Source: Bacillota bacterium
GTDB lineage: Bacteria; Sysuimicrobiota; Sysuimicrobiia; Sysuimicrobiales; Segetimicrobiaceae
Length of the DNA stretch: 64,000 bases
Assembly (NCBI GenBank): GCA_021324975.1
Contig: JAJPIA010000058.1
Coordinates: forward strand, 51,939 to 115,938
Reading direction: 5' to 3'
The stretch's first letter is position 1. Every line of letters begins with the position of its first letter. The notes below the pieces were generated by a model. The model was not told where the DNA came from. It saw nothing but the letters and a program-made list of their open reading frames with translations, and ran no database searches. Made by a program: the position numbers and the translations under genes. Shown here one piece after another: positions 39,356 through 57,736 of this stretch.

Positions 39356-39431
39356 GCGCCCGTAGCTCAGGGGATAGAGCGGCTGCCTTCTAAGCAGCGG
39401 GTCGGGGGTTCGAATCCCTCCGGGCGCGCCA
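39356..39431 (+). tRNA. tRNA-Arg (anticodon TCT), encoded CCA
   Basis: GCGCCCG acceptor pairs with CGGGCGC; GCTGC-CTTCTAA-GCAGC anticodon arm; GGTTCGAATCC T arm; CCA end. Confidence 0.95.
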
Positions 39432-40662
39432 ATATTTCCAAGCCCTCTAGCGATGCGGACGGTGCCCGGCCGACCTTCTTGCTAATGCCCTGCAAATGCC
39501 CGCCAAGGAGACGTGTCGCCAGCGTCTCGGACGCCTCTTGTAACATCGGCGCCAATACATGCGCGTACACGTTCATTGTCGTACTGATGTTAGCATGTCC
39601 AAGGTTCTCCGCAACCACTTTCACCGGCGTACCAAACCGCAGCGCCAACGTCGCGTAGACGTGCCGCAGGTCGTGGAAGCGGATGCGCGGGACGCCCGCC
39701 GTCTTCGCCAGTGTGGGCAATTCGCGCTGACTGAGATTGTTCGCGTGCAGCGGTAGCCCATTGCCCTGGGAGAGGACGAGGTCGTGGTCTGTGTAACGCG
39801 GCCCGATCAACTTCCGAAACTCGGCCTGCAGCCCGCGGAGGTGTTCGAGTTCGCGCACGAGGATGCGGGGCAGGGAGATGGTGCGCCGGCTCCGCGCCGT
39901 CTTCGTCTCCGCGAACCGCACCACACCACGGGACCGTCGCAGCGTGTGCTGGACCGACAGGCGGCCCGCGTCGAGGTCCACGTCCCGCCAGCGCAGCGCG
40001 AGGAGTTCGCCCTGCCGCATCCCCGTGAGGATCGCGGTAAGGTACACGGCATAGTTCCGCGACAATCGCCGCGCGGTCGCGAGGAACACGCGCACCTGTT
40101 CTTCGTCCCAGACCCGCATTGGACGGTACGAGAGGCGTGGCGCTTTAACGCCCGCCAGCGGGGATCTCGTCAGCATCCCCAGCGTCACCGCCTGTCGCAG
40201 CGCCGTCCGTAAAACCCTAAATGACTGGTGAACGGTCGCCGCGGACAGGGGGCGGGGGACAGGCTTCGCGTTCTTCCTGTGGGGCGGGATATAGGTCTTG
40301 TCGCACATGGCCCGCAACCACGCCTCGACCGTGCCGCTGGTCAGCTTCGCCAACGGAACCGATCCTAGATCGGGCCGGAGGTGGATGCGGACCACGGTAT
40401 CATAGACCCGCTTCGTGGTCGGCCGCACGCGCAGCGACGCGGTCTCCAGCCAGCGGGTCAGGTACTCGGAGAAGGTCTGCCGCGCCGGCGCCAGGGCACC
40501 GCCTTTCGCGAGGACCTGGATCACGTGGTCCTGCGCTTCCCGCCGCGTGTCGAACGTCGTCCACTTGTACCGATCGCGGCCCGCTTCGGTCTTCCCGAGA
40601 TAGACGACCGCGGCCCAGCGATGGCCGCGCTTTCGCACGTGCCCCCTTGGCATCAGCTGCAC
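39367..40662 (-). CDS. Tyrosine recombinase/integrase
   Basis: TGMRQGELLALRWRDVDL (R), HDLRHVYATLA (HxxR), LGHANISTTMNVYAH (GH..Y); frame continues through att core. Confidence 0.95.
   Translation of the reverse strand: MQLMPRGHVRKRGHRWAAVVYLGKTEAGRDRYKWTTFDTRREAQDHVIQVLAKGGALAPARQTFSEYLTRWLETASLRVRPTTKRVYDTVVRIHLRPDLGSVPLAKLTSGTVEAWLRAMCDKTYIPPHRKNAKPVPRPLSAATVHQSFRVLRTALRQAVTLGMLTRSPLAGVKAPRLSYRPMRVWDEEQVRVFLATARRLSRNYAVYLTAILTGMRQGELLALRWRDVDLDAGRLSVQHTLRRSRGVVRFAETKTARSRRTISLPRILVRELEHLRGLQAEFRKLIGPRYTDHDLVLSQGNGLPLHANNLSQRELPTLAKTAGVPRIRFHDLRHVYATLALRFGTPVKVVAENLGHANISTTMNVYAHVLAPMLQEASETLATRLLGGHLQGISKKVGRAPSASLEGLEILARPEGFEPPTRCLEGSRSIP
39381..39431 (+). repeat. attL core (51 bp)
   Basis: GGCTGCCTTCTAAGCAGCGGGTCGGGGGTTCGAATCCCTCCGGGCGCGCCA identical to 57686-57736. 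Confidence 0.93.
39479..39502. repeat. Candidate integrase arm-type site pair, left end
   Basis: TTGCTAATGCCCTGCAAATGCCCG, 21/24 identical to 57556-57579. Confidence 0.65.
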
Positions 40663-40749
40663 CCCCCGCGCGGAAATGCCAAGAGGGGGTTCCGCGGCCA
40701 GGGGGGCGGCGCCTTGTGGATAAGTGACGCGTCCGGACGCGCCACGCCC

Positions 40750-41502
40750 CTAGATCCCTACCCCCGTCATCGTCCGCTGCGGAACGGGCGCACTCCTGAC
40801 GATCGCCGTCGCGGTGGCCGCTTTGAACGCGGCGATGCACGAGATCATCTGGAAGCACTGGTTGGCCGTGTCGTCCCACGAGGTGGTGTACGTGCCGGTC
40901 GCGGTCACGATCCGGTATGCGGGCTCCAAGTTGTCGAAGTTGTAGCTTTGATTCACGCCCGTCATGGACACGAACTGATTATTCGGCCCCTTCGACGCGG
41001 CACTGGCCGAGCCCGAGAGGACCGCGACCACAAGATCATTCGCATTGCCCGTCGTGACATTCGGCGAATTGACCGTGAGCCCGCCGCCGCCCCCGCTTTG
41101 CGCGGTACTCTCGCTGCCGGTCCCATCGGTTGGCGTGGTCGTCAGGAGGCCCGCCCATTCCGCGACATTCGCGTATTCCATGTCGGAGTTCGCGGAATTG
41201 ATGGCGTTCGCCATCGTCAACGTCACGGTCTGGGTCCCCGTCCCGATATTGAGGGAGTACCAGACCTCCCCCGTAACGAACTGACCACTGTCCTCGCTGA
41301 TCACGGCCTTCTGCCAGGCCTGGCCACCCCCGCCCGCGATGGACGAGAGATTGTTGGCACCTCCGCTGCTTAAGAATCCCGCTGCACAGATCAGCGCGTT
41401 CCCGCTCGACGGGACGGACGACAGGGTGACCGTGAGGGTCGTCGCCCCGTTCGCGATAACGAAATTCGTGGCTTGTTGCACAAGCGCGATCGTCACAGCC
41501 AT
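40750..41502 (-). CDS. Phage-type Gly/Ser/Thr-rich beta-structured protein, putative virion appendage
   Basis: MAVTIALVQQATNFVIANGATTLTVTLSSVPSSGNALIC...VAEWAGL; composition and pattern of tail/appendage proteins. Confidence 0.55.
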   Translation of the reverse strand: MAVTIALVQQATNFVIANGATTLTVTLSSVPSSGNALICAAGFLSSGGANNLSSIAGGGGQAWQKAVISEDSGQFVTGEVWYSLNIGTGTQTVTLTMANAINSANSDMEYANVAEWAGLLTTTPTDGTGSESTAQSGGGGGLTVNSPNVTTGNANDLVVAVLSGSASAASKGPNNQFVSMTGVNQSYNFDNLEPAYRIVTATGTYTTSWDDTANQCFQMISCIAAFKAATATAIVRSAPVPQRTMTGVGI

Positions 41503-41539
41503 CCCCCCTCCAAACACGTGAACACGCGCACACTGGCAA

Positions 41540-42145
41540 TCATGCGCCGGCCACCTCCACGGCCGCTACGAGGGTACGCCAATCCGGCAATGCGTTCACC
41601 GCGTCCGATTCAATCAGCGCGAAGGGATCGTTGCTGCCCCGGACCCTTGGAATGTGCCGCAACGGCACCGCGGGGAACGTGGTTCGCAACAAGGCTTCTT
41701 GTTGGACGTCAAACGCCGCCGTGGCCGGAACGAGAATCGCTGCGATCGGCAGTGTTACGCCCGCCCAGAACCCGACCTCGCGCCCGCGGGCCTGGTCCTT
41801 GTACGCGTACAGACACGGGAGGATCGGCGATTCCCTGACGCGCAGCGCCAACGGAATCGCTTCAATCGCAAGACGGCCAGTCTCTTGTCCCAATGACGTC
41901 TTCGCTTCGAGGGCAAAGACGGTGGCGGGCGACGCCACACGCAAATCCGCCTGCGTTCGCACGAACAAGGCTGCCAGCGACGTCTGACGCTGTAGGTACG
42001 TGGCAAAGACGGTGGCGCCATCGTGGTAGCGGTGGGTCCGCTGCACCGCGTATCCCCGCGCCACAAGCTCGGCGACGACGCGCGCCTCGAACTCGTCATG
42101 GGCGCCACCTGGGGCGATCCGCAGGGCGGTGGGGGAGGTGATCAT
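41540..42145 (-). CDS. Putative PD-(D/E)XK-like nuclease-fold protein
   Basis: FEARVVAELVARGYAVQRT...TQADLRVASPATVFALEAKTSLGQ: D...ExK spacing. Confidence 0.45.
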   Translation of the reverse strand: MITSPTALRIAPGGAHDEFEARVVAELVARGYAVQRTHRYHDGATVFATYLQRQTSLAALFVRTQADLRVASPATVFALEAKTSLGQETGRLAIEAIPLALRVRESPILPCLYAYKDQARGREVGFWAGVTLPIAAILVPATAAFDVQQEALLRTTFPAVPLRHIPRVRGSNDPFALIESDAVNALPDWRTLVAAVEVAGA

Positions 42146-42184
42146 CGGGGACCGCCCCGACCGTAACTATCGAACACATGTCCC

Positions 42185-42361
42185 AGGATGACACGGTCCC
42201 GCCGCCACCCCTTCGGAAACCCAATAAAATCGCCAGGATGACAGGATGACACCCCTATATAGAGACAGGGACTGTCACCCTGGCAGAGATGACAGGTCCC
42301 CTCGTCTCTATGGGGCACCCAGGATGACATACAGGATGACACAGGATGACATGTCATCCTG
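42185..42361. repeat. Iteron-like array of AGGATGACA with terminal palindrome
   Basis: AGGATGACA at 42185, 42235, 42243, 42321, 42333, 42343; inverted TGTCATCCT at 42352; palindrome CAGGATGACATGTCATCCTG 42342-42361. Confidence 0.8.
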
Positions 42362-43670
42362 GTAGACCTTCCTTCGCATCCCTGGCTGATTTCAGTCCCC
42401 ACGTCGCTTTCTGGGGCTTCCCGTTGGAAAACCCGCCCTTGCCGACTTGGACGAACCTCTCGGGGTGCCGGCGCAGCGCGGTCGTGGTGGCATTCTCGCT
42501 TTTACCAATGGCGGCAGCGATCTCGTCAACGGGAACTGGCTTGTTCTCGGCAGCGAGGCATGCCTCAATCAGCGTGACCGTTCCCGCTTTTTCGGATAGG
42601 GAAATGGACTCGGTGATGTCGGTCCTGTCAAATGTGACGAGATCGGGAAGTCGGCCTGGACGTCCGGTGATGGTGACTTTGAACGCCAGCGGCGCGTGCG
42701 ACCCATAGTTACTCTTGTACTGGGTCACCCCCAGCATCTTCGTCTGTGTGCGGAGATCGCCGTCGAACTTTTCCTCCACGTCATCCTCAAGGGTGAATTG
42801 CCAGGCGGTTCTGGCCCGATTCGGCCCCATGACGGACCCAAACGGAGACGATCGCTTCGAAGAAAACTCAGCCTTCGGGATGTGGTTGATCAGGATACTG
42901 GACACGTCAGGACCAAGGCTTCGAAGAACCGCATGGACGCGTTCGACGGTGCCCGACGTCTCGGGATCGGCGCCGGCCGCGGCGATGTACGAGTCGATGA
43001 CCACGAGGTTAACCTTGCGGCGCGAAACTTCAGCCCGCAGCCAGCGCGCGCACGCTGGAAGCGGGGCGACGGGCGCCACGTGGTCAAGATGGGGGACTGG
43101 CATTTCGTGACCGCGGCAGATGGCACGGAGGCGCCCACTCCCCAATCCCGCATCGTCTTCATAATCGACGTAGAGTCCCCGTACCGGACGGAGTGGATGG
43201 ATACCGGCAAACGACACACCCTGAAACATGGCGCCGGTATACGCTAGGGCGAACAGACTCTTCATCGATCCGCCGGGGCCATAGAACATGGCAACCTTAC
43301 CCGCCGGAACCAGGTCTTCGGAATCGATGAACAAGTCTTGAGACGCGGGGACGACGGTCGAAAGATCAACGACGTCCGGGGTGCGTCGGACGTGGGTAAT
43401 TGTGATCTCGGCAATCTGTTCAATAACATCGCCCCACGGAACTGTGGGGCCGCGCTTCGTTAACTCCTTGATGACGTGGGCGCGGCTTTGAGTGGCGAGA
43501 AGGTTGAGGCGGGTCCGGTGCAGGTGTGTGTTCGTGGCACTACGGAAAAGGATTTCCACCCAGATCGCGTCGCGGTCATCATCTGTGACGTCGACAATCG
43601 CTGCCACCGCATGCTGTTCCCACAAAAACTCCAGTGTGTCTCCGTGAGGCGTGACCGTGGGCTTGGCCAT
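42354..43670 (-). CDS. RecA-fold/RepA-like AAA ATPase (replicative helicase-like)
   Basis: AMFYGPGGSMKSLFALAYTGAMFQG Walker A; GLYVDYEDD; LVVIDSYIAAAGADPE Walker B. Confidence 0.82.
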   Translation of the reverse strand: MAKPTVTPHGDTLEFLWEQHAVAAIVDVTDDDRDAIWVEILFRSATNTHLHRTRLNLLATQSRAHVIKELTKRGPTVPWGDVIEQIAEITITHVRRTPDVVDLSTVVPASQDLFIDSEDLVPAGKVAMFYGPGGSMKSLFALAYTGAMFQGVSFAGIHPLRPVRGLYVDYEDDAGLGSGRLRAICRGHEMPVPHLDHVAPVAPLPACARWLRAEVSRRKVNLVVIDSYIAAAGADPETSGTVERVHAVLRSLGPDVSSILINHIPKAEFSSKRSSPFGSVMGPNRARTAWQFTLEDDVEEKFDGDLRTQTKMLGVTQYKSNYGSHAPLAFKVTITGRPGRLPDLVTFDRTDITESISLSEKAGTVTLIEACLAAENKPVPVDEIAAAIGKSENATTTALRRHPERFVQVGKGGFSNGKPQKATWGLKSARDAKEGLPG

Positions 43671-43672
43671 GG

Positions 43673-44395
43673 TTAGACCTCGACTCCGCGGAGTGCCCGA
43701 GCCCGGTTGTGCAGGTTCGTGGACGTGACACTCTCGACGCACTGGCGGACTTCACTTGTGGGCATCGGTGGTCGATTTTTGAGATTCCAACCGACCAATA
43801 ATTCGTACACCTCTTCGGGGCCGAGTCCGTGGGCGATCAACCAGCCGACGAGACGTGTCGCGACAATGTTGCGTTCGCCCTCCTCGACGCCACGTAATAG
43901 GCGGACATACCCATCGGGTGGTGTGCGCTTCGCTGGTCCAACCTCGCGCTGTGCCGCCAGCTTCACGATCCACTCGGGCAGCGGGACGATCGGCTCATCG
44001 ACCGCGACCTCGTACGCGATCCCGTTGATGACGGACGGCGGGATCAGGGCGTAGGTCCGGTTGGATCGTAACTCCACGCCGGGCAGCATGGGCACGAGGG
44101 AATCACAGCCCCCGTGGCGGTAATAAAAGTGCCACCCGCCAGACGGCGTAAGGACGGTGCGCGTTCTGGGCAAGATCTGGCCGCGTAGCGAGTCCATGCC
44201 GCTGTCGTCCACGTCGATCACATCGATGCCCGACGCGTTGCCGCACAGCATCGCGCGGTTGTAGGGCGGGCAGGGGAACTCACGATCCCAGCGCGCCACC
44301 TCGTCGGGCGTGGGGTCGCGATGTTGGAACTGCGCCCACTCGATGGCCGCCTTCTTAGCGTTGGGCAAAACCGGGACTACCCGCATTACGGCCAC
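43673..44395 (-). CDS. Bifunctional DNA primase/polymerase (Prim-Pol) with PriCT-like tail
   Basis: IDVIDVDDSGMDSL; TPSGGWHFYYRHG; VEEGERNIVATRLVGWLIAHGL. Confidence 0.85.
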   Translation of the reverse strand: MAVMRVVPVLPNAKKAAIEWAQFQHRDPTPDEVARWDREFPCPPYNRAMLCGNASGIDVIDVDDSGMDSLRGQILPRTRTVLTPSGGWHFYYRHGGCDSLVPMLPGVELRSNRTYALIPPSVINGIAYEVAVDEPIVPLPEWIVKLAAQREVGPAKRTPPDGYVRLLRGVEEGERNIVATRLVGWLIAHGLGPEEVYELLVGWNLKNRPPMPTSEVRQCVESVTSTNLHNRARALRGVEV

Positions 44396-44646
44396 CGTCC
44401 TTCCGTCGACGCATCAACGGTCTCGACGAGGTCGAGGACGACGTCGAGGAGGCGGTGCAGGTACTCGCGACGCGACTCAGCAAACCCACGCAGCGAGGCA
44501 TCGTCGTAGCCGCCGCGCCCCAAAAAGTTCACTTCATGGGGCAGTGTCGCGTAAAACTGCGCGGCCTCACGGAACATCTCAGGGGCATCGGCCCGTGTAA
44601 GGCCCGCCAGCGAGTGCCAGGGCCGTATGCTGCGTGGGATGGTCAT
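44386..44646 (-). CDS. Hypothetical protein
   Basis: Overlaps upstream end of Prim-Pol gene, operon-like. Confidence 0.5.
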   Translation of the reverse strand: MTIPRSIRPWHSLAGLTRADAPEMFREAAQFYATLPHEVNFLGRGGYDDASLRGFAESRREYLHRLLDVVLDLVETVDASTEGRWP

Positions 44647-45011
44647 GACCGGACCGCCCTTTCGACAGCCTCTACCAAGGCAACGTGGGCGACAGCTTTG
44701 GCAAATCTCCGCTGGTCGCGCCTCGCTTGGGCGAGTTCACGCAGAAGTGCAAGGTGACGGGCCTGCGCCGGCGAGGTTTTCCGTCGAACGCTGAGCGCAA
44801 CCAACGCAGCCGGAACCCCGTTGTCCTCGGTGATCTCGGCAATGAGGCGGTGACGCAGCCGCGCTAACTGACGATGCCCGCGGGCCACGCCGAACTCAAC
44901 GGGGGAGGAGTCTGTCTGAGAACCCGCGAATGCGGTCCGAGATTGCGGGTTTTGGACCGAAAAGGGTATTCTTAAATTGCCGTTCGTCATCGGACCCATC
45001 CTTTCTCCCAC
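44643..45011 (-). CDS. Hypothetical protein
   Basis: Overlaps next gene by 4 nt. Confidence 0.5.
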   Translation of the reverse strand: MGERMGPMTNGNLRIPFSVQNPQSRTAFAGSQTDSSPVEFGVARGHRQLARLRHRLIAEITEDNGVPAALVALSVRRKTSPAQARHLALLRELAQARRDQRRFAKAVAHVALVEAVERAVRS

Positions 45012-45080
45012 GGGGGAGACGTGCCGGGCGGTGCTTCCCGGGGGCAGGCGCCTCTAACGCCGGCCCCCAATTTATGACGG

Positions 45081-45413
45081 CTACTTAGCGACGACCCCCC
45101 TTTCCGACAGGCGAATGTCCCGATCTCGCAGTTTCTCTCCGATCCACTCTTCGAATTGCCGGCGTGGGATAAGGTAGGCAGACCCAATTCGTCGACTTGG
45201 TATCTCGCCGAGTCTTAGATATCGGTACACTGCAGGTAGTGACAGGCCGAGGACAGCTGCCACTTGTGGGGGACGTAGGAATAGAGAAGGATCCGCCAGG
45301 CGTCCCAGCAGGACGTCGATTTGGTCGATTCGATTGAGGTCTTTTAACTGGTGATCTCTGAGGGCCGGGCCTCTAACAGAAAAGCGGCCCGCAACCCCCG
45401 TCGATGCCGGCAT
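45081..45413 (-). CDS. Excisionase/MerR-type HTH (HTH_17) DNA-binding protein
   Basis: LRPPQVAAVLGLSLPAVYRYLRLGEIPSRRIGSAYLIPRRQFEEWI. Confidence 0.8.
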   Translation of the reverse strand: MPASTGVAGRFSVRGPALRDHQLKDLNRIDQIDVLLGRLADPSLFLRPPQVAAVLGLSLPAVYRYLRLGEIPSRRIGSAYLIPRRQFEEWIGEKLRDRDIRLSERGVVAK

Positions 45414-45909
45414 ACAGCACCTCCAGGTGGCTTGCGGACCGCACCGTGACCAAGGGCGCTTCGGAGAGATCTCCGTCGACGGGACTAGAACCCGTCGCAC
45501 CCCGACCCGTTACGCTGTGGGTACCGTTACACGATTTTACGCGGACCGGTAGATGTAGTTTCCGAGGCGGATGCTACCACAAGCGGAAACAGATTGCAAA
45601 TCAGTTATACGTAGCGGTAGGCCGTCCGACGATCTAACCCGGCCGCATCGATTGCCTGTTCTTTGGTTAACTTCGTGTCAGCGCTGGCACGAAGTTGGTC
45701 GTTCCGGATTCCTTGGACCGGTTCCAGTTCCCGAACAAGTTCCCCGATCCGCCGCATCGCGCGGAGCTTGATCTCGGCCACCCAGCCACACGTCCGCGAG
45801 ATCCGACCTGGCCGCGCTACTGACTTGTTGACGCAGCGCGTTCAGCGGCGTCGATCGCTGGGTCGAGCCTTCAATTGCCGCCCTAAAACGCCATTACTGG
45901 GACAGGCTC

Positions 45910-46089
45910 CTAGCGATCCAAGATCACCGCCACCACCCCGCCCAGCAGCACCAGCCCGAACACCGTCCCATAGATCGTCTCCAATACCGGCAGCGACCTC
46001 GGCCAAATCAGCACCACCGCGATCCCGATCATGATCGCCCACAGCATCGCCCCCGCAATCGTGTTCCGCAGTTCAATCCACGGGTCCAT
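45910..46089 (-). CDS. Small two-TM membrane protein, holin-like
   Basis: Reverse-strand frame MDPWIELRNTIAGAMLWAIMIGIAVVLIWPRSLPVLETIYGTVFGLVLLGGVVAVILDR* (59 aa, below ORF-track cutoff). Confidence 0.6.
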   Translation of the reverse strand: MDPWIELRNTIAGAMLWAIMIGIAVVLIWPRSLPVLETIYGTVFGLVLLGGVVAVILDR

Positions 46090-46098
46090 GGTCGTGCC

Positions 46099-46518
46099 CT
46101 ACGGGAGGTTGGCGAACAACGCCTCGTTCGCCGGCCCCAGGTACGCCTGACACCACCACAGACCGTGTTCCGCCCGCACGGGGTAGCTGCCCGTCGTGTA
46201 ATACTCCGCCAGCGCCTCGCGGCACGCGACATACCCGCCCACCTGGGGATGCGGTCCCGCGGCCACCTGGCGCGTGTGGTCCTCGCAGTACCCCACTCCG
46301 TGTTCGGCCGCGGCGGGGTACGCCCCCTTCTGCTGCGCCCACGCCACCGCCTCGCTACACGACAGGAACCGCAGCCACGGGTACGCCGCGAAGTTGCGCA
46401 CGCTGTACGGGGCCTGCCCCTGCGGCGTGACGACCGACGCGGTGCCCGACACGCCCACCGCCACCACGACACCCACGGCCATCATCCCTGCCAGCACCAA
46501 CGCTGTGAGTCTCTTCAC
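46099..46518 (-). CDS. Secreted protein with two Cys-flanked AEHG repeats
   Basis: Signal peptide VKRLTALVLAGMMAVGVVVAVGVSGTASV; CSEAVAWAQQKGAYPAAAEHGVGYC and CREALAEYYTTGSYPVRAEHGLWWC. Confidence 0.65.
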   Translation of the reverse strand: MKRLTALVLAGMMAVGVVVAVGVSGTASVVTPQGQAPYSVRNFAAYPWLRFLSCSEAVAWAQQKGAYPAAAEHGVGYCEDHTRQVAAGPHPQVGGYVACREALAEYYTTGSYPVRAEHGLWWCQAYLGPANEALFANLP

Positions 46519-46688
46519 TGCACTCCCCCCTCTGTGTGGGTCCCCATCATACCAGGCCCGTAAGGTATCCCCGATCACCCGTTCGATCCGTTTGCTGAAT
46601 CAGATAGGCCGTCATGGAGGTACGAGGCTATGGCGCACCCCCCACCCCGGGGGTACGGTCGGGGGCGTCGCCTCGCAGGCGTCTCGCG

Positions 46689-46838
46689 CTACAGTCTCGG
46701 TGCTGATTCATACCACTGCAGGAACTTCGCCCATTGGCGTGCGTAGCGCCGCGATTGACGCACCACGCGCACCACGACACCGAGATTCAGCAGCACCACC
46801 ACCATCAGCACTGCGGTGCTAATGTGCGACCAGGTCAT
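46689..46838 (-). CDS. Small single-TM protein
   Basis: MTWSHISTAVLMVVVLLNLGVVVRVVRQSRRYARQWAKFLQWYESAPRL* (49 aa), below ORF-track cutoff. Confidence 0.5.
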   Translation of the reverse strand: MTWSHISTAVLMVVVLLNLGVVVRVVRQSRRYARQWAKFLQWYESAPRL

Positions 46839-46842
46839 GGCG

Positions 46843-47052
46843 TCATGCCTCCTTGGGCGCGCGTCGCTTGGCCCAGCGCGCGAGGGCGGCCTTGCGGGCG
46901 ATCGCCTGGCGCTGCGCCTTGGTCGTTTGCCGTTGCCGTGCTTGGATGCCCAGCGTGGAGATCTGCTTGCGGCGCTTCCTGGTCAGCTTGCGGGCGCGGG
47001 CTTTGCCGCCTTTGGCGGACTCTTCCCAGATCGGGTGTTTGGGCACCATCAT
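46843..47052 (-). CDS. Small basic KGGKARA-type protein, possible DNA-binding
   Basis: KGGKARARKLTRKRRKQISTLGIQARQRQTTKAQRQAIARKAALARWAKRR. Confidence 0.6.
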   Translation of the reverse strand: MMVPKHPIWEESAKGGKARARKLTRKRRKQISTLGIQARQRQTTKAQRQAIARKAALARWAKRRAPKEA

Positions 47053-47066
47053 GGTCTGATCGTAGC

Positions 47067-47110
47067 ACGGGCAAGGTAGCTTGACAATACGGGCAAGGAA
47101 GCACTATGCT
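47067..47110 (+). promoter_or_regulatory. Sigma70-type promoter with overlapping direct-repeat operator
   Basis: TTGACA 47081-47086, 18-nt spacer, TATGCT 47105-47110; ACGGGCAAGG(T/A)AGC at 47067 and 47089, 22-bp period. Confidence 0.65.
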
Positions 47111-47153
47111 GCAACAGGGACCATTCCGCAACACCGAACAGGGGGGACCGCGA

Positions 47154-47807
47154 ATGAAGGTCGCGATCTATGCCAGAGTCAGCACCGTAGACAAGGATCA
47201 GAACCCCGACACACAGCTGCTACCGCTGCGGGAGTACGCCGCGGCGCAGGGCTGGCAGGTTGTGGGCGAGTTCGTGGACCACGCCAGCGCGGCGAACCTC
47301 CGCAAGCGGCCCGCGTGGGCTGAGGTCATGCAGCTGGCGTCCCATCGTAAGGTCGCGGTGATCCTGGTGTGGAAGCTGGATCGCGCCTTCCGGTCGGTGA
47401 TGCACGCCACGGGCACGATCGCGAACCTGCGGCGCTGGGGCGTCGGCCTGCGATCGCTGACCGAATCGTGGCTGGACACCTCGAACACGTCGCCGGCCAG
47501 CGACCTCGTGTTCCATGTGCTGACCGCGGTGGCCGAGTTCGAACGGTCGCTGATCGGTGAGAGAGTCAGGGCGGGACTCGCCAGGGCGCGCAAGCAGGGG
47601 AAGACGCTGGGGCGGCGCGCGGCGCTGAATGGCGACCTCGACGCGTTGATCCCGGCGCTACAGGCGGGACAGCTGTCGATGCGGGACGTGGCGAAGCGGT
47701 TGGGCGTCCATGTGTCCACCGTGTCGCGGACGGTGGCGAAGCGGGACCTGTTGCGGAAACCCTATCGAATCGGGGCCTCGCCAGCCCGTATCCAGTACGG
47801 TGTTTGA
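47154..47807 (+). CDS. Serine recombinase (resolvase/invertase family)
   Basis: KVAIYARVSTVDKDQNPDTQLLPLREYAAAQGW; FEFERSLIGERVRAGLARARKQGKTLGRR-like block; C-terminal HTH MRDVAKRLGVHVSTVSRTV. Confidence 0.93.
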   Translation: MKVAIYARVSTVDKDQNPDTQLLPLREYAAAQGWQVVGEFVDHASAANLRKRPAWAEVMQLASHRKVAVILVWKLDRAFRSVMHATGTIANLRRWGVGLRSLTESWLDTSNTSPASDLVFHVLTAVAEFERSLIGERVRAGLARARKQGKTLGRRAALNGDLDALIPALQAGQLSMRDVAKRLGVHVSTVSRTVAKRDLLRKPYRIGASPARIQYGV

Positions 47808-48533: not shown

Positions 48534-48540
48534 CCCCGTG

Positions 48541-49169: not shown

Positions 49170-49940
49170 CTAGGGACTGTCGGGCGTCTGCGAGACGTGT
49201 AGCTGCCACACCCAAGCGCCATTCCACCGCTGCTGCTTTGTGGAGGCGATGCCCAGGCTGCGGCGGACCTGTTGGACGCTGTTCCAGTTGAACCCGTTGT
49301 CCGATGCCCACTGCATCATGTGGGTAGCGGGTTTCGGTCCCGCCAGGAGTTCGGCAAACAGGGCGCGCTGAATGGCGCGGTACTTCGTGGGCTTCGGGTG
49401 GGTACGGCGCCATTGGGCTTTGCGGCGAACCTGGGCCGCGTGGTTGCGGGCGATCAGCTGGTCGATTCTGGGATCGTGGCGGACCGAGACCGAGATCCGC
49501 GAGGGCAGGTCCTCGGGGATTGTGGCAACATCCGCCAGGGTGGTCACGATGCGCTGGAGGGCGACGTGTTGGGGCAGCGTCGCGTCCGCCCGCGCCGGCC
49601 ACGATTTCGGGACGCCTACCACGCCCGAGGGGGGAGATACCGGGGTCGAGGCCCGAAGCGGAGATTCCCGCGGCAGCGGCCGCGGATTTGCCCCAATGTG
49701 GGCATCGTGGAGGCGGTCCCTGGCGGCGCGTACGGCCTGTTCGTAACTGTAGTGATCCGCCGAGGGGACCCCGTGCCCCGCAGGCGCCGGTGGTCCGCCA
49801 TAGTACCGGGACCGCTGCCAGGCGCAGGTCGAACACTCGCCACCATACGATGGCCCGCCGCAGCGCGGGCAGCGCGCCGTCAGACCAGTCACCGAGATCC
49901 CCACTCGGCGCATCATCGGTTTGACGTCAAATGCCCTCAC
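49170..49940 (-). CDS. Zinc-ribbon / C-terminal winged-helix-like protein, putative replication-associated
   Basis: CPRCGGPSYGGECSTC ribbon; C-terminal FNWNSVQQVRRSLGIASTKQQRWNGAWVWQL. Confidence 0.5.
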   Translation of the reverse strand: MRAFDVKPMMRRVGISVTGLTARCPRCGGPSYGGECSTCAWQRSRYYGGPPAPAGHGVPSADHYSYEQAVRAARDRLHDAHIGANPRPLPRESPLRASTPVSPPSGVVGVPKSWPARADATLPQHVALQRIVTTLADVATIPEDLPSRISVSVRHDPRIDQLIARNHAAQVRRKAQWRRTHPKPTKYRAIQRALFAELLAGPKPATHMMQWASDNGFNWNSVQQVRRSLGIASTKQQRWNGAWVWQLHVSQTPDSP

Positions 49941-50749
49941 GTCTTGATGATGTAGTTCGTGACCACGTAGGGCTGCAGGTTGTTGTGGGCAGCCCCTCCG
50001 CCCGTGTTGTTGATCGTTAGCGTAAACTCGGTGTTGTTGCCGATGCTACCGCCAGGCAGGCTGGAACCCCCAGACACGTTCGGGCCGAATGGCAAGCCAT
50101 TACTCCACGAATGGCTGCTAGAGTGATTGTGGCTGGGCATCTCGTTCGTGGTCAGCGTGTGCTGCGCTTCGCCCCCGGTCGCCCCCATCGCGTACGTCCC
50201 CGATTGCACGCCGAGGGGCACGGTGCCCTGGAGGTTCGGGACGTTGAACGTCGTACTGCCGTCGCCCGCCCCATAGGTCGTGCCAATGGCCGAGAATAGC
50301 GCCGCATACGTCGTGCGCGACACCGCGGACCCGTCGCAATTCAGCCACCCACTCGGGGCGGTGGACGCCCCATAGGGGATGATCGCACCTACGGGAACCG
50401 TCCCGCTGACACCGCTTGTCTGAATCGCCAACAGCGGATTGCCCCAGGTGATCGCCTGTCCTACGGTCCCCGTCACGGGCGCCTGATACACGAACAGGGC
50501 CGTAGGACTCGTCGTGAGCCGAATCGCGGTCGCCCCGCCTGGCGCCACGTAGTTGAACACGCTGCCCGTCAATGTGGCATTGACCGTGAACCACGCTTCC
50601 TCCGTCGTGCTGACAGGGTGCAGGTGATACACGTGCCCTGCCGCGGCGTCCAGCAGGGTCGCGTTCACCTGGGATTCGGTGGGGATCGCGGTCCCCGCCT
50701 CGTCGCTGCCTGATAACTGGAGTAATCCGTAGGACGTCTTATTACTCAT
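49937..50749 (-). CDS. Phage tail collar domain protein
   Basis: VPVGAIIPYGASTAPSGWLNCDGSAVSRTTYAALFSAIGTTYGAGDGSTTFNVPNLQG...EMPSHNHSSSHSW. Confidence 0.88.
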   Translation of the reverse strand: MSNKTSYGLLQLSGSDEAGTAIPTESQVNATLLDAAAGHVYHLHPVSTTEEAWFTVNATLTGSVFNYVAPGGATAIRLTTSPTALFVYQAPVTGTVGQAITWGNPLLAIQTSGVSGTVPVGAIIPYGASTAPSGWLNCDGSAVSRTTYAALFSAIGTTYGAGDGSTTFNVPNLQGTVPLGVQSGTYAMGATGGEAQHTLTTNEMPSHNHSSSHSWSNGLPFGPNVSGGSSLPGGSIGNNTEFTLTINNTGGGAAHNNLQPYVVTNYIIKT

Positions 50750-50751
50750 CG

Positions 50752-53700
50752 CTAGGGCTTGAGGTAGTTCGTGAGGTCGAACGGCGACCCAGGGGCGGGA
50801 GTCGGTCGCAAGTGCCCGCGCCTCGTCGTCCCTTCGAGTTTGAGGCCGTACTGCTGGACAATCCGCTGGGCGAGGTTCGCGCGTTCGGCCGCGGTCGAGT
50901 GGCCCTCGTCCTGCAAGGCTTCCTCGGCCCAGCGGTACAGCTGATCGTTGAACTTGGTCGCCAGCACGGTCGCCTGCCGGATCGCCTGGGGCGTGCCCGC
51001 GTCCACGAGGGTCTTGATCTTGTTCTGGTACGGGGCCCGGCGCTGCACGTTGAACATGAGATCGCCCACGTTGTACTCGGCGGGCGTCTTCTTCGGCTGC
51101 GAGACCACGGGCGACATGAGGACCTGCGGCACCTGCCGCGCGACCCCGCCCACGGTGAGACCGCCGCTGAGGCCCTTGGACGGGTTGTAGCCCGACGCCA
51201 GTTGCCGCAGCGACAGCGGCGTCGTGCCCATGCCGAAGTATTGGGCGGCCCGGGCGACCTTGTCCCACCAGTCCACGCTGGGGTCCTCGATCTGCTGCTG
51301 GTTCTGCGCCACGTTCAACGCGCCGCGGATCGCGGGCGCGGGCGTGAACATCGCTTCCGCCCCGTACCGCAGCGGGAGTTCGCCAGTTGCGACGCGGCCA
51401 ATGTCGCCGGCGATCCGAAACGGGCCGGGCCCGCCGACCCTGGCGCGGGGATTGCCCAGCATGTGCTGGACGGCGTTCTGGAGGAATGAGTGCGCGGGAA
51501 CGGTGCCCGTCAGCACAATCCCCAACAGCGCGAGTTTGTCCGCGGCTTCGAGGCGCTGCGCGGCCGTCATGCCGGGGCCGAGAAGCCCCTTCACCGCCTG
51601 CCCGTACGACTTCAGGACGCCGTAGTGATAGGGCGCGAAGATCGTGAGGCCGCGGCCCCGCAGGATGTTGGCGATCTGCGCGTCCCCCAGCACGTGCGCG
51701 GGGATCTGATACTCGGGGAAGAACCGGCCCGTCTCCGCGATCGCGGCGTCAATCGAGGACGTGATCGTGGATTGTGCCGGCCGCTTCCCTGCCAGCACGC
51801 CCGCTTCGCCTTCGAGTTGCCTCTCGAACACCCGCTGCATGTAGGCCATGTCGTTACTCAGCCACGTCACCTGATGCGAGAACCACAGGGGGGACGACAG
51901 AATCCGCTTGACCGTCGTGCCGAGGTGCGCCGCCATGCCCGCGAGAGTTTGGGGTTCGGCCAGCAGCTGCTTCCTCGCGAGATCCAGTAGCGCCCCGTGG
52001 GTTTCGAGATCGCCCGCGCGCATGAGGGCCGCCCCGCGCCCCAGGAGGTCCTGATAGTCCTTGTTCATGTGGATCGCGGCGTTGAACGCGCGCTGGGACG
52101 AGATCGCGAGGCGCTTATAGGCCGCGGGATTGACCCAGCGGGTGAGACCGCGATCCCACAGCCAGAACCCCGCCACGTTCGGCGTATGCACGAGTGGGTT
52201 CACGAACCCCACTTGGATCGACGCGTTCATCGCGCCCGCCAGCGCGTTCACGATCGCGCTGCCGCTGCGCGTCTTCGGCATGAACGCATCGAACACGTCG
52301 GCCACCTTGGGATCCATCAGGTAGCCCTGGAACTGCGGCATCCGCGGCGCCCGCCACGTCTTCGGATCGAACCCCGGCACGAGGAACCGATTGGGGTCGG
52401 TCGGCTTGACCGCGTACGTAGCGAACTCGGGCGTGGACGTGACATGCCGCAGAAACTCGTCCGCGTTGACCGCCTTCTGGGTTTCCAGGTGGTCGTACAA
52501 GATCGACACCGCGGCGTTCTTGAGATAGCGCGTGCCGGTGTGGGCTTCGATCTGCGCGGTGGTCGGCTGCGTGAACCGATACATCCGGCCGTCCTTGGCC
52601 CGGAACACCGTGTGCGTGAGATCGTCAGGGTTGTAGCGCGCCCCGACCTCGTCCGCGCTACGCTGAAGGCGGACCAGGGTGTCCTGCAGCGTCGTGAGGC
52701 GATCCCGTAGCGCCCCCTCGTCCTTGGTCGCCGCCTCGTTCCACAGCTGGTGCAGCCGCCCCACCGCGTCCAGGTCCGTGCGGATCTCGGGCGTCACCTC
52801 GGGCGCGACCCGGCTCGTGTCGATCAGTTCCTGGGCGAGGTCTTTCACCTTGGCGAGATAGGCGTTCGCCCGCACCCGAGACGGCAGAACGCGCCCCGTG
52901 GCGGCCTGCTGCAGCGCCCGAATCCCGACCTGCAGGTTCGCGATCCGCCGCTTGATCGGCGCGAGGTCCTGCTGCTGAAACTCGGCCAGCGTCTTCCGCC
53001 GCGCCACGGTCCCCAGGAATTCGGGCTTGCCGTTCGTCCACCGCGTGACGCGCCCGTCCGCAACCGAGATCACGGACGATTTCCCGGTCTCCATGTCCAC
53101 CGCGGCCTGGTACGTCCTGCGGGACCGCAGCGACCCGGGGACGCGCCGCAGGAGACCGCCGACCCGAGGGGCGCGGTCGCTGCCCGCCATCGCCTCGTCC
53201 ACCCAGCCGCCCTTGCCGAGGGCGAACCGCCGCATGTACCCAATCGACGACACGGGGCGGAACTCGCGCGGGAGACTCGCCTTCATCGCTTCGGTGGCCT
53301 GGCGGATCGGGAACAGCGTATCGGCGATCGCCTGCTGGCGGGGCGTCAGCGCGATCCCCGAATCCTCGCCGGCGTGGTAGACGGCCTCGAAGTCCTTCGG
53401 GTCCATCCGCGTCAGTTGCCGCGCCGTCTGCCGTAGCGACACGTCGAGGGCGCGTTCCTTGCCGCGCAGCTGCCGCAGCTGCGTCGAGAGATCGCCCACG
53501 AACGTCTGCCGTTCCGACGCCTGCGCGAGATGCCGCGCGATCGGCTGGAGATTGATTGCGCCCGTCTCGTCGTCCGCGGCCCGCTGCGCCGCAGTGATCG
53601 CCTGCTGAATCGCCGGCCGCACGCCCGGGCGCGTTGTCGAATCGGCCACGAACGGCGGAGTGCCGGCGGCTTTCACGTTATGGGCGGCCTGGGCGCGCGC

Positions 53701-54639
53701 GTCGTCCGCCAGTTGCGCTGCCTGATCGGTCTGAACGGCCTGCGCCACTGCGGCCTGATCGGCCTTCTGCTGCTTGTCCGCGGCCATGCGCTTGACCGTG
53801 GGCAAGTACGCCGACCGTGCCACGGCCTCCGCCGCCTGGACGTCGTGGGTGCGCGCCACGTCTTCTGTGAGGTGGGCGGCGACCTGGGCGGGGTGGGGGA
53901 TTACCTGTTCCGCGGCCGTGCGCGCAACGTCACTCGCGGCCTGGGCGGCCGTCCTGCGGGTCGCCGCGGTGACACCCTCCGACAGGACGCGGGAGGCCAT
54001 AGCCTTCACGCCCGCAGCACCGAGGCCCAGCACGGGGAGAATCTGCGCCAGGTTCATGCCCGCGCTGATCAGCGTGGAAACGTCTTGGGCGGCCTGCGGG
54101 TTCCGCTGAATCCAGTCGCCCACCTGCTTGATCCCTGGCGCGTTCGCGGCCTCCCACTGCGCCCACCGCACAGGGGCGCTGCCCGACAACCGGCGCGCGA
54201 TGTTGCCGACGTCGCGGATCACGGGGGCGTTCGCGGCGGCGCGCTTCGCGCCCGCGTACACGTCTCCGAGTTGCTTCACGCCCGGGAGATTCGCAAGGGT
54301 GTTCTCGGTCGCTTGGACGTTCTGCGCGACACTGTGCAGCGAGACGGGCGATCCCGTCGCCCCGCTTTCATACGCCCGACTCGCCGCTTGTTCCGCGGCC
54401 ACCGCGGCGGCGGCCCGCTGCGGTCCGGTGGCGCCCGATCCTTTGGCCTGCTGTGCCGCTTGTTGGGCGGCACTAGCCGATCCTGCGGCGCGTGCGGGGG
54501 CTGTGACGTCATGTGGCGTAGGCTGTGCCGCCGGAATCAGCCACGAGGGCGAAGGTGCGGGCGCCGGCGGCCGCGGCCTCGTGCCGTTCGTCGGTATCGG
54601 GGTCGCGGGGATCAACCAGTCGGGTGTTTGATTACTCAC
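50752..54639 (-). CDS. Very large (1295 aa) uncharacterised protein, putative virion/ejection-associated
   Basis: Ala-rich N-terminus with WLIPA duplication, long helical regions; in block with tail-collar gene. Confidence 0.6.
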   Translation of the reverse strand: MSNQTPDWLIPATPIPTNGTRPRPPAPAPSPSWLIPAAQPTPHDVTAPARAAGSASAAQQAAQQAKGSGATGPQRAAAAVAAEQAASRAYESGATGSPVSLHSVAQNVQATENTLANLPGVKQLGDVYAGAKRAAANAPVIRDVGNIARRLSGSAPVRWAQWEAANAPGIKQVGDWIQRNPQAAQDVSTLISAGMNLAQILPVLGLGAAGVKAMASRVLSEGVTAATRRTAAQAASDVARTAAEQVIPHPAQVAAHLTEDVARTHDVQAAEAVARSAYLPTVKRMAADKQQKADQAAVAQAVQTDQAAQLADDARAQAAHNVKAAGTPPFVADSTTRPGVRPAIQQAITAAQRAADDETGAINLQPIARHLAQASERQTFVGDLSTQLRQLRGKERALDVSLRQTARQLTRMDPKDFEAVYHAGEDSGIALTPRQQAIADTLFPIRQATEAMKASLPREFRPVSSIGYMRRFALGKGGWVDEAMAGSDRAPRVGGLLRRVPGSLRSRRTYQAAVDMETGKSSVISVADGRVTRWTNGKPEFLGTVARRKTLAEFQQQDLAPIKRRIANLQVGIRALQQAATGRVLPSRVRANAYLAKVKDLAQELIDTSRVAPEVTPEIRTDLDAVGRLHQLWNEAATKDEGALRDRLTTLQDTLVRLQRSADEVGARYNPDDLTHTVFRAKDGRMYRFTQPTTAQIEAHTGTRYLKNAAVSILYDHLETQKAVNADEFLRHVTSTPEFATYAVKPTDPNRFLVPGFDPKTWRAPRMPQFQGYLMDPKVADVFDAFMPKTRSGSAIVNALAGAMNASIQVGFVNPLVHTPNVAGFWLWDRGLTRWVNPAAYKRLAISSQRAFNAAIHMNKDYQDLLGRGAALMRAGDLETHGALLDLARKQLLAEPQTLAGMAAHLGTTVKRILSSPLWFSHQVTWLSNDMAYMQRVFERQLEGEAGVLAGKRPAQSTITSSIDAAIAETGRFFPEYQIPAHVLGDAQIANILRGRGLTIFAPYHYGVLKSYGQAVKGLLGPGMTAAQRLEAADKLALLGIVLTGTVPAHSFLQNAVQHMLGNPRARVGGPGPFRIAGDIGRVATGELPLRYGAEAMFTPAPAIRGALNVAQNQQQIEDPSVDWWDKVARAAQYFGMGTTPLSLRQLASGYNPSKGLSGGLTVGGVARQVPQVLMSPVVSQPKKTPAEYNVGDLMFNVQRRAPYQNKIKTLVDAGTPQAIRQATVLATKFNDQLYRWAEEALQDEGHSTAAERANLAQRIVQQYGLKLEGTTRRGHLRPTPAPGSPFDLTNYLKP

Positions 54640-56453
54640 GGGTGCAGCACGGCGCCCGTAGCGCCATCGTACAGCGTGCCGTTAGGGGCCCGGTACACGT
54701 CGTGCCCCGTGCGCGAGTCGCGGCCTGCGAAGGTCGCGTTGGACGGGATCGTGGCGCTTCGCGCGCCGGCGGGCGTCACCGACCCGTGCGACGACGGGAC
54801 GGGGGCGGGCGTGTGCCCACCGCCACCGCCGTGTCCACCCGTCCTCGACCGCGTCTGCCCCGCCGTGGCCCCGATCCCGTACTTGTCATAGATCGCCTGC
54901 AGGCGCTTCAAGAGGTTGGGCAGCTTCGGGTCGGTCGGGTCCAGCGCGTCGATCTGCTTCTGCAGCGTTGAGATCGCGACGCGGGCGTTCTCGGGAACCC
55001 GTCCTGCCGCACCCGAGGCGCGAGGGGCGCCACCTGTCGTCCGCGTCGATCGCTGCGGCTGCGGCCTCACACCGGGAACGAAACTCTCGGGCATCGTCGC
55101 CAGGATCTCGTCACCCTGCTGCTGCGTGATCTCGCCCCGCTGGACCGCGTCATGGACGGCCTTCTGCGCCTTCGCAAAGAGGGCATGCGCCCGCTGCTGG
55201 GCCGCCTGGGCGTGCGCCGCATCGGGATAGTCGCGCTTCAGGAGATCGTTCGCCGTCGTGACGAGGCGGTTCACGCCAGTGTTGATCCGCGTATACGCCT
55301 GCGTCTGCGCGGCCCGCTGCGCTGTCTGCTGTTCCGCATCGAGGCGCGCCCGTTCATAGGGCGTGAGGGGCTGCGGTGCGACAATCCCGTTCGCCCGTAG
55401 CCACGGATCGATCTTGGCGGCATCGGGGAACCCGTTGGCATCAAGGAATTGCGGCGGCACGCGCTGGCCCGCCAGTTGGCGCACGTTGGGATTGTTGGAC
55501 GTTGCCATCCACGGGTAACTCGCCCCGAACGTCCCCGGTGGGTAATAGGCGGGCCCTGGGGGCGGCGCCTGGGTCGCGGTGCCCACGGCCGGTGGTGTCC
55601 CGCTGGGAGTCGGCGCACCCGTCGGCGCCGCAGACGGTGCCGTGCCGCCCGTGGGTGACGGTGTGCCCGCAAGCCACGGGTACGGTGTGCGGGTGTCCCC
55701 AGGCTGCCCACTCGGCCCAACCGGAGGCGAGGCGGGTGCGGGGGATGATGGTGCGCCGCCCACGTCACCGCCGGCGTAGTACACAGCTGCCCTCCATCCC
55801 GTGCCGAGGGTGGCGTTGACCTGATCGACAGGTGAGTCGAGAGGAAACCCCGCCGCTTGCAGGGCCGCGAGAACCTTGGGATTGTTCCCGTAGATTTGCC
55901 GAAACGTCTCCTGCCCAAGAGGCGTCTGCGGCAGAATGTACTGCGTCGTCGTTGTCTGCGGCCCCTCGAACGTCACGCCGGGCATGGTCGTGGCGAGTGC
56001 CTGCTGCGCGGACGGCGTGCCCTGGGGCGCTGCTGGGGCAGACGGCGTGGCCGGCGTCATCGGCTGCGGCTGCGCGGTCGCTTGAGGCGACTGCGGCGTG
56101 AAGGGTTGCGGCTGCACCTGACCGGGTGCTGGTGACGCCGTTGCGGTTGGCGACCCGAATGCGCCACCACTCGCGGGCGCCTGAATGTTCAATCCGGACA
56201 CGTTGGCACCCAACCCGCCCGCGGGCGCGTTCGGGTTCCCGGTCGTCACCTGCTGCGTGGGCAGCTTGAAGTGATAATACGGGCTGAAGAAGCCCGCCTT
56301 GTCGAACACGGACTGAATCTGTCCCGCAATCGCCTGCCGCTGCGTGTCCGTAAGGTTGGGGTTTTGCAGCATCCCCTCGAGAAGGTTGATCTGCGCCTGC
56401 GATCGACGATTCACGAGATCCATCCACGCGCCCAGCAAGCCGCCGAGTGGCAT
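54636..56453 (-). CDS. Pro/Ala/Gln-rich 605-aa uncharacterised protein, putative structural
   Basis: MPLGGLLGAWMDLVNRRSQAQINLLEGMLQNPNLTDTQRQAIAGQIQSVFDKAG...; overlaps 1295-aa gene by 4 nt. Confidence 0.55.
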   Translation of the reverse strand: MPLGGLLGAWMDLVNRRSQAQINLLEGMLQNPNLTDTQRQAIAGQIQSVFDKAGFFSPYYHFKLPTQQVTTGNPNAPAGGLGANVSGLNIQAPASGGAFGSPTATASPAPGQVQPQPFTPQSPQATAQPQPMTPATPSAPAAPQGTPSAQQALATTMPGVTFEGPQTTTTQYILPQTPLGQETFRQIYGNNPKVLAALQAAGFPLDSPVDQVNATLGTGWRAAVYYAGGDVGGAPSSPAPASPPVGPSGQPGDTRTPYPWLAGTPSPTGGTAPSAAPTGAPTPSGTPPAVGTATQAPPPGPAYYPPGTFGASYPWMATSNNPNVRQLAGQRVPPQFLDANGFPDAAKIDPWLRANGIVAPQPLTPYERARLDAEQQTAQRAAQTQAYTRINTGVNRLVTTANDLLKRDYPDAAHAQAAQQRAHALFAKAQKAVHDAVQRGEITQQQGDEILATMPESFVPGVRPQPQRSTRTTGGAPRASGAAGRVPENARVAISTLQKQIDALDPTDPKLPNLLKRLQAIYDKYGIGATAGQTRSRTGGHGGGGGHTPAPVPSSHGSVTPAGARSATIPSNATFAGRDSRTGHDVYRAPNGTLYDGATGAVLHP

Positions 56454-56465
56454 CGCCCTCTCCCC

Positions 56466-56909
56466 CTAGTGCGTCCCTTGGTGCTTGCCGACACTCGGGG
56501 CGGGACCCGCCGCGGCCGGTTCGTCCACGCAGGACCCCTCGGCCGGCGGTGCCGTCTCGGGATCTGGCGCCGCAGGGGGGTCGGGTTCAATCGGCGCGTT
56601 CGCCATCGCGACAATGCCGAGAGGATCGTACATCGCGAAGCGGACGCGATTGTTGCGGGCTTGCCGCACCGATTCGTCTACCACCGCCCGGTTCTCGGCC
56701 GCGTATTCGGCCCACTCCGCCGGCGTCCACGCCACGGTGACCATCTCGAAGCCGTGGCGCACATCGGCCGGGATCGCACAGCCGTAGCAAACCCAAAACA
56801 CGAACCCGGGGCGCCACCAGTAGGTGCGGCTGCCGCACAGGGGACAGGGGCCCAGCGACTCGTGGGGCGGGCGCATCGTCGCGTTCGGATCGGCCAGGAA
56901 GTCCGTCAT
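56466..56909 (-). CDS. Zinc-ribbon hypothetical protein
   Basis: LGPCPLCGSRTYWWRPGFVFWVCYGCAIP. Confidence 0.55.
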   Translation of the reverse strand: MTDFLADPNATMRPPHESLGPCPLCGSRTYWWRPGFVFWVCYGCAIPADVRHGFEMVTVAWTPAEWAEYAAENRAVVDESVRQARNNRVRFAMYDPLGIVAMANAPIEPDPPAAPDPETAPPAEGSCVDEPAAAGPAPSVGKHQGTH

Positions 56910-56911
56910 GT

Positions 56912-57514
56912 TCACGTCGGCAGCGCCCCTGGTCCACCGACCTGCGGGCTGCTGACATCGGGCGCGCCGACCTGCCCCTGATTCACGCCGCCACCAGCCT
57001 GCGGTGCGCCACCGCCGCCCATCCCCCCACCGGCCGCACCAGCCGCGGCACCACCGTACGGTCCAAACCCGATCCCCGGTCCACCGACGCCGAAGAGGTA
57101 CGTCGATCCCGTACCCAGCTGTCCAAACGTGTTCCAACCTGACGGCAACGGACGGCCATAGGGATCGTTCTGCGGGAGGCCCTGGCCCGTCCATGCGAAC
57201 CCGCCGCCGTAGGGCGTCCACCCCGTCCCCGGGGCAGGACTCAGCGGCGCCTGCGTGGCTTGGACGGGCGGTGCCGTGGGCGCGGGCACGCCGCTACTGA
57301 CGGGCATGGGCGGAACGGCCGTGGCAAGCTGCGTCGGTGGGCCGACCATGGCCGATGAGGGCGGCGGCGCCGGCGGTGGTGTCATGGGCGCGGTGATCGT
57401 GGACCCCTGAAGACTCCCGAACGCCCCAGGGTTCGCCCCCGCGAACGGGCTGCCTTGCGCCCCGGCACCGCCTCCCAACAGACTGTACAACACCCAGGGG
57501 GAGAGTAGAGACAC
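56912..57514 (-). CDS. Pro/Gly-rich low-complexity hypothetical protein
   Basis: MSLLSPWVLYSLLGGGAGAQGSPFAG...; directly precedes zinc-ribbon gene. Confidence 0.45.
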   Translation of the reverse strand: MSLLSPWVLYSLLGGGAGAQGSPFAGANPGAFGSLQGSTITAPMTPPPAPPPSSAMVGPPTQLATAVPPMPVSSGVPAPTAPPVQATQAPLSPAPGTGWTPYGGGFAWTGQGLPQNDPYGRPLPSGWNTFGQLGTGSTYLFGVGGPGIGFGPYGGAAAGAAGGGMGGGGAPQAGGGVNQGQVGAPDVSSPQVGGPGALPT

Positions 57515-57555
57515 GTCAGTCCACCTGCCTTTTCACGGTGTCGCGGGTGTGGGGC

Positions 57556-57579
57556 TTGCAAATGCGCTGCAAATGCGCG
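57556..57579. repeat. Candidate integrase arm-type site pair, right end
   Basis: TTGCAAATGCGCTGCAAATGCGCG; TGCAAATGC twice at 11-bp period. Confidence 0.65.
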
Positions 57580-57685
57580 GGTGTCGGATGGGCCGTATTT
57601 CGACCCTCAGTCCCACCTAGCGGCTTCGCCGAAGCCTTATTTTTCTGGGGTTTCCGGGGCTTGCGATTTTGCGTGATCTTTGAGG

Positions 57686-57736
57686 GGCTGCCTTCTAAGC
57701 AGCGGGTCGGGGGTTCGAATCCCTCCGGGCGCGCCA
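57686..57736 (+). repeat. attR core (51 bp), displaced tRNA-Arg 3' end
   Basis: Same 51-bp sequence without the 5' half of the tRNA. Confidence 0.93.

Follow-up and report, generated by a model that had tools for sequence, protein, structure and literature searches.

The DNA examined here is a 64,000-nucleotide stretch (the window) of contig JAJPIA010000058.1 in assembly GCA_021324975.1, from a bacterium of the phylum Sysuimicrobiota, and at positions 39432-57736 it carries an element integrated at a tRNA-Arg gene. With some reserve, we read this element from its sequence as probably an integrated phage satellite: it would use the head and terminase of a helper like C22, a podovirus prophage in the same genome, together with ejection proteins and a fibre of its own. 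We propose that the capsid is borrowed from a C22-like phage because genes for building and packing a shell are absent from the element, and the same genome also contains an entire phage with parts that match those of the element. A preliminary description of the sequence had offered three options: a satellite borrowing a helper's capsid, a phage with very divergent head genes, or a non-viral element using tail-like proteins. The first is now the best supported of the three, through the podovirus with homologous parts and through a related replication module in a second capsid-less element (see below), although its mobilisation by the phage is something that we infer.

The element is sharply bounded. 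Its target, a tRNA-Arg(TCT) gene called by ARAGORN (39356-39431, plus strand), remains whole on the side of the integrase. The 3′ part of this gene is directly repeated, with one mismatch in 55 bp (98% identity), at 39377-39431 and, as a partial tRNA, at 57682-57736. The copies lie 18,305 bp apart, and the element proper spans 18.3 kb. The attachment (att) site is thus duplicated as first described, but the 51 bp given for it are the exact run within the longer 55-bp repeat. We count 22 likely genes, all with uninterrupted frames and a strong third-position GC bias, at 92% coding coverage. The gene set is, as previously noted, almost entirely leftward: 21 of the 22 lie on the minus strand, and the sole rightward gene encodes a serine recombinase/resolvase (47106-47807, plus strand; PF00239, 3e-38). 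GC content is 61-62% across the replication genes, compared with approximately 67-70% over 8 kb on the left side and 64-66% over 6 kb on the right. The host, a soil-type bacterium, is represented by a 4.43-Mb genome in 144 contigs (96% complete, 4.75% contamination).

Scans of the element's proteins against Pfam and PHROGs profiles bore out the integration, replication, regulatory and collar functions that the preliminary description had named. These are a tyrosine integrase of 423-431 residues whose C-terminus extends into the att site (39367-40662; PF00589, 5e-22; phrog_1, 4e-71), a RepA-like ATPase of the AAA_25 family that is likely to be the replicative helicase (42354-43742; PF13481, 7e-18), a primase/polymerase with Prim-Pol and PriCT_1 domains (43673-44395; PF09250, 6e-21; PF08708, 2e-10), a 139-residue helix-turn-helix (HTH) regulator of the excisionase/AlpA type (45081-45500; HTH_17, PF12728, 5e-12; phrog_66 excisionase, 2e-7) and the collar-domain protein described below. 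The same scans gave no match to a terminase, portal, protease or capsid among the element's proteins, also in agreement with the preliminary description, whose overall picture of a tRNA-Arg-integrated element with replication genes and without recognisable capsid or packaging genes therefore holds on the tRNA call, the direct repeat and the profile searches alike. Among the proteins scanned against Pfam there were no relaxase, coupling or type IV secretion/conjugation families, and we found no credible match to a defence family and recognised no stl/rpr-type repressor in the element.

A search with the element's collar fibre located the candidate helper, C22, a 38,715-bp contig that is a complete podovirus prophage (its positions are given below in two parts, L067 for C22:1-20000 and L068 for C22:20001-38715). 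PHROGs profiles identify its large terminase subunit (TerL, 5e-10), portal (1e-18) and major capsid protein (MCP, 2e-28), plus a virion structural protein and an integrase. Its termini carry a 53-bp repeat of tRNA-Ile(GAT). Exact 107-bp overlaps connect its start to the end of contig C101 and its end to the start of contig C55, which holds the remainder of the tRNA-Ile(GAT) gene; because these overlaps join the contigs in the order C101-C22-C55 at that gene, C22 is integrated in the host chromosome. The contigs break beyond, not before, the att core, which suggests from the assembly overlaps that a circular (attP) form of C22 coexisted in the sample. The same phage is present in IMG/VR as IMGVR_UViG_3300027826_000152. 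The nearest relatives of its portal include those of Vibrio VS-ABTNL-3, Caulobacter Kuura, Desulfofustis LS06 and PaMx41 (Fredfastierviridae), phages that, judging by gene order, we take to be podoviruses.

Three element proteins have homologues in C22, as judged by pairwise alignment scores compared with those of shuffled sequences. The 270-residue tail-collar fibre (49937-50749, minus strand; PF07484, 3e-25; phrog_9116, 7e-41) is 58% identical over 160 residues to a 275-residue C22 protein (score 479, shuffle maximum 94); this collar family is common in IMG/VR, where matches of similar length reach 51% identity. The 605-residue protein (54636-56453, minus strand), a probable ejection protein, matches the 672-residue product of L067:11569-13587 (BLAST 36% over ~130 residues, E 4e-12; score 258, shuffle maximum 126). 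Across 43 genomes of the phylum, each representing a species and all together one order, the domain of the 605-residue protein occurs in this genome only, with one copy in the element and one in C22, and a pattern scan of IMG/VR viral contigs returned only C22's own record. (The phylum, CSP1-3 or Sysuimicrobiota, has been published as a single class with a single order; PMC11604079.) Lastly, an adhesin-like protein of 250-255 residues (40750-41517, minus strand) is homologous to the 441-residue product of L067:5029-6354 (BLAST 31% for the 255-residue form, E 3e-6; score 186, shuffle maximum 69). Gene order differs between the two, the collar gene coming after that of a giant protein in the element and before it in C22. 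Separately, proteins that combine what looks like a signal peptide with 2-3 tail-collar domain repeats are encoded on the chromosomes of two other members of the phylum (L071:7194-8591 in G008 and L072:2-1009 in G010), beside xanthine-dehydrogenase-type genes and with no evident prophage around them.

The giant protein of the element has 1295 residues (50752-54639, minus strand), and neither it nor the 605-residue protein matches any Pfam or PHROGs family. Their order is paralleled in C22, in which the 672-residue protein is followed by one of 1030 residues, and in C22-related podoviruses, whose late operons end with one or more mid-size proteins (~350-650 residues; annotated variously as transglycosylase, structural, amino-acid-binding or hypothetical) and then a protein of 1358-1849 residues. 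The end of the late operon is the position of the internal ejection proteins, as for gp14-16 of T7. The 1295- and 1030-residue proteins also have in common an FxxPxxHxxN motif, also given as NPxxHxxN, and each carries a tandem motif near its N-terminus: WLIPA twice in the former (matched by 8 of 300 shuffles) and DPYAHLF twice in the latter. Tandem N-terminal motifs are present in the Desulfofustis and Mel-JY34 giants as well, yet not in every phage giant. From its position after the 605-residue homologue and its architecture, together with weak sequence evidence, we infer that the 1295-residue protein is probably a podovirus-type internal or ejection protein. Because proteins of like size and order are internal "ejection" proteins in C22 and related podoviruses, the 605- and 1295-residue proteins plus the fibre are best read as an injection-plus-fibre module and not as a concealed head. 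The label "tail-like" in the preliminary description accordingly suits the collar protein alone; the best counterparts of both large proteins are internal or ejection proteins of podoviruses. As an observation in its own right, the short tandem motifs at the giants' N-termini (WLIPA, DPYAHLF, ENFVPAQxFLS and LDDIDxML; window 54520-54639, L067:11460-11576, L080 and L082) are possibly docking or sorting tags whose sequence varies between phages.

Parts of the element recur elsewhere in the phylum. In G007, which belongs to another genus of the same family, a 34%-identical relative of the 1295-residue protein's C-terminus lies at a contig end, ~4 kb from a serine recombinase 61% identical to that of the element; IMG/VR, GenBank phages and GTDB contigs yielded no relatives of the 1295-residue protein. 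Directly downstream of the giant-protein relative in G007 (L012:16980-18560, contig C68) are small cysteine-rich, zinc-finger-like proteins, a placement that parallels the element's 256-residue zinc-ribbon-like protein downstream of the fibre. At a tRNA-Arg of G011 lies an integrase with 51% identity to that of the element, again cut by the contig end. In G002, compared for an empty site, the genes that flank the insertion sit on separate contigs. A third genome, G005, from the same bacterial family, contains a 9.8-kb element between tRNA-Pro repeats (contig C83; L069:6277-16133) with a RepA-like ATPase 31% identical to that of the window (E 2e-37), an integrase, an HTH regulator and TerL (phrog_979, 2e-40); none of its scanned proteins matched a capsid or portal. 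This is a second satellite-like element in the bacterial family, and therefore small capsid-less elements with this RepA replication family recur there. Just after its RepA gene is a partly palindromic 56-bp direct repeat (98% identity; L069:9378-9433 and 9505-9560), a possible set of replication origin iterons.

If the satellite reading is right, activity of a C22-like helper would lead to excision of the element by its integrase and HTH_17 protein, and the Prim-Pol and RepA ATPase that it encodes would replicate it. Element DNA would be packed by the terminase of the helper into helper procapsids, into which the element's 605- and 1295-residue ejection proteins and collar fibre would be incorporated. 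Adsorption and injection by such chimeric particles would then depend partly on satellite-encoded parts. Two copies of the element come to 36.6 kb, approximately a helper-size head of 38.7 kb, which is arithmetic only. We propose tentatively, and would not be surprised to be wrong, that the element represents a class of satellites that borrow a podovirus head and terminase and bring a receptor-binding fibre and a genome-ejection apparatus of their own. Helper capsids would thereby be re-armed for the injection of satellite DNA, perhaps into hosts inaccessible to the helper.

Several observations weigh against a satellite of C22. Only three or four proteins are common to the two, we found no packaging-site DNA in common with C22 (blastn stays at the shuffle level outside three homologous coding stretches), and the C22-like parts could have been gained for purposes other than mobilisation. 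Similarity between the 1295-residue protein and its C22 counterpart of 1030 residues is weak, since 5 of 200 shuffled sequences scored as high in pairwise alignment, and an hhalign comparison of the 1295-residue family's profile with the C22 protein was not significant. AlphaFold2 models of both giants made without alignments were helix-rich and unusable (mean predicted local distance difference test scores of 44 and 39); for these reasons the ejection role is read from place and architecture. The complete late block is seen in no relative, the G007 and G011 copies ending at contig ends. Finally, the element's contig (C76) is continuous across both att sites, with no excised or empty form visible.

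Some of these points would also suit the main rival, a relic: a C22-related temperate podovirus stripped of the genes for head, packaging and lysis but as yet no further decayed, with leftover ejection and fibre genes that are functionless. We consider this rather unlikely. The retained genes do form a contiguous stretch typical of the end of a podovirus late operon, the assembly shows no sign of excision and the full arrangement was found in one genome only, but none of the 22 frames is interrupted, codon bias is strong and genes cover 92% of the element; moreover, the collar gene follows that of the giant, unlike in C22, and no C22 protein corresponds to the Prim-Pol/RepA module. In a different genus (G007), a relative of the 1295-residue protein has also been retained near the serine recombinase of 61% identity. 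The open frames, gene order, replication module and conservation of giant and recombinase thus favour function over decay. Nor is the element a decayed fragment of a known prophage, a possibility raised at the outset, insofar as C22 is concerned: gene order and replication genes differ and every frame is open, although it may descend from another podovirus without a head. A genomic island might use a captured fibre/ejection module for something other than its own transfer, for example exclusion or the dominant poisoning of C22-like virion assembly. Structural homologues could compete with those of the helper, and helper interference is common among satellites (PMC6092414), but the element has no credible defence family, interference alone needs no full-length 1295-residue protein plus fibre, and any interference may equally be a by-product of a satellite's life; we regard an island of this kind as improbable.

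It is less probable still, and in our view very unlikely, that the element is a complete, highly divergent phage, with a capsid, a portal and a terminase that go unrecognised among the genes that lack a family. Several proteins do lack one, and the structure models are too poor for excluding folds, but C22 speaks against divergent head genes: its counterparts of the large proteins, whether matched by alignment or by place, are not head proteins, C22 having a separate MCP, portal and TerL of its own. The remaining family-less proteins are at most 256 residues long, two of them with zinc-ribbon-like motifs, and the RepA-like protein is the only P-loop ATPase that Pfam found in the element. The notion that head genes are hidden in the 605- and 1295-residue proteins was dropped for the ejection-type reading once C22 was found, and the podovirus homologies likewise disfavour a non-viral element.

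Among described systems the nearest precedent for a satellite that carries a tail gene like that of a co-resident helper is AH14b of Pseudomonas sp. ANT_H14 (PMC4936722). AH14b is 16.8 kb long, encodes an integrase, an AlpA-like regulator and a primase but no head genes, and shares its genome with a 55-kb helper, AH14a; packaging as multimers was proposed, and its one tail-related gene (TAPI) is 71-74% identical to the helper's. It differs in that its helper is a siphovirus and VIRFAM found no structural proteins, whereas the window element has a fibre and large ejection-type proteins, and in that packaging was shown for AH14b (PMC4936722), whereas for the window element it is proposed. Phage-inducible chromosomal islands (PICIs, including the Staphylococcus aureus pathogenicity islands, SaPIs) resemble it in their integrase, excisionase-type HTH protein, primase/replication ATPase, similar size (~12-15 kb for PICIs) and lack of a capsid, but their definition (PMC6092414) excludes phage structural genes and calls for divergent regulators. 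The element falls outside this definition because it carries the collar fibre and the 605-residue podovirus homologue; we also found no PICI-type divergent regulator pair with opposed halves, 21 of the 22 genes being leftward. Capsid-forming PICIs (cfPICIs) similarly carry part of the phage particle genes, but they make their own capsids (PMC11389934), whereas this element has the complementary set, fibre and ejection proteins without capsid, portal or terminase. The element would thus work like a satellite of the P4/PICI type yet fits neither the PICI nor the cfPICI definition.

Other comparisons are looser. Phage-inducible chromosomal minimalist islands (PICMIs) share the combination of integrase, AlpA/HTH_17 protein and primase without capsid remodelling genes, and are packaged as multimers (PMC10803314), but they are ~6 kb Vibrionaceae elements at a fis site, with a DUF3987/DUF5906 primase and no structural genes, whereas here we see Prim-Pol/AAA_25 and tRNA-Arg. 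MiniFlayer and MulchRoom also have particle genes, including a MiniFlayer tail-fibre protein in a possible adsorption module, but the machinery for encapsidation is their own and key replication genes are missing, the opposite of the window element (PMC10690885). Kuura, VS-ABTNL-3 and PaMx41 close their late operons likewise with a mid-size and then a giant protein, but are complete phages with heads and terminases. The satellites compared here hijack whole particles, resize heads or, for cfPICIs, build heads and borrow the remainder. A headless satellite with ejection proteins and a fibre would, if real, be the mirror image of a cfPICI, and would make it testable whether satellites reprogram a helper's injection step and host range; the element and C22 are also candidates for a satellite and its helper in a phylum that has no cultivated members. 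One literature search returned no paper combining phage satellites, an ejection protein and a tail, and another, single search nothing on phages of this phylum.

The other element genes, all on the minus strand, encode small or family-less proteins. The late block, which runs on through the 605- and 1295-residue proteins to the fibre, opens with an open frame for a 200-residue Gly/Pro-rich protein (56912-57514), in the same position as small Gly-rich C22 proteins, a likeness of position only, without a sequence match. Next are a 147-residue zinc-ribbon protein (56466-56909; weak Zn_Ribbon_Prim, E 0.23) and, beyond the fibre, a 256-residue protein without a family match whose N-terminus has a four-cysteine zinc-ribbon-like motif (49170-49940). 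Open frames of 88-193 (48588-49169) and 155-159 residues (48054-48533) match no family, nor do those of 122 (44643-45011) and 86 residues (44386-44646), the latter in an operon; a 201-residue protein (41540-42145) is likewise without a Pfam or PHROGs match and looks nuclease-like by eye only. Between the HTH regulator and the serine recombinase lie a 58-residue protein (45605-45781), a 59-residue membrane protein (45910-46089; phrog_1528 holin, E 0.16, not significant), a 128-159-residue protein with a hydrophobic N-terminus (46099-46578), a 49-residue membrane protein (46689-46838) and a basic protein of 69 residues (46843-47052), all in open frames.

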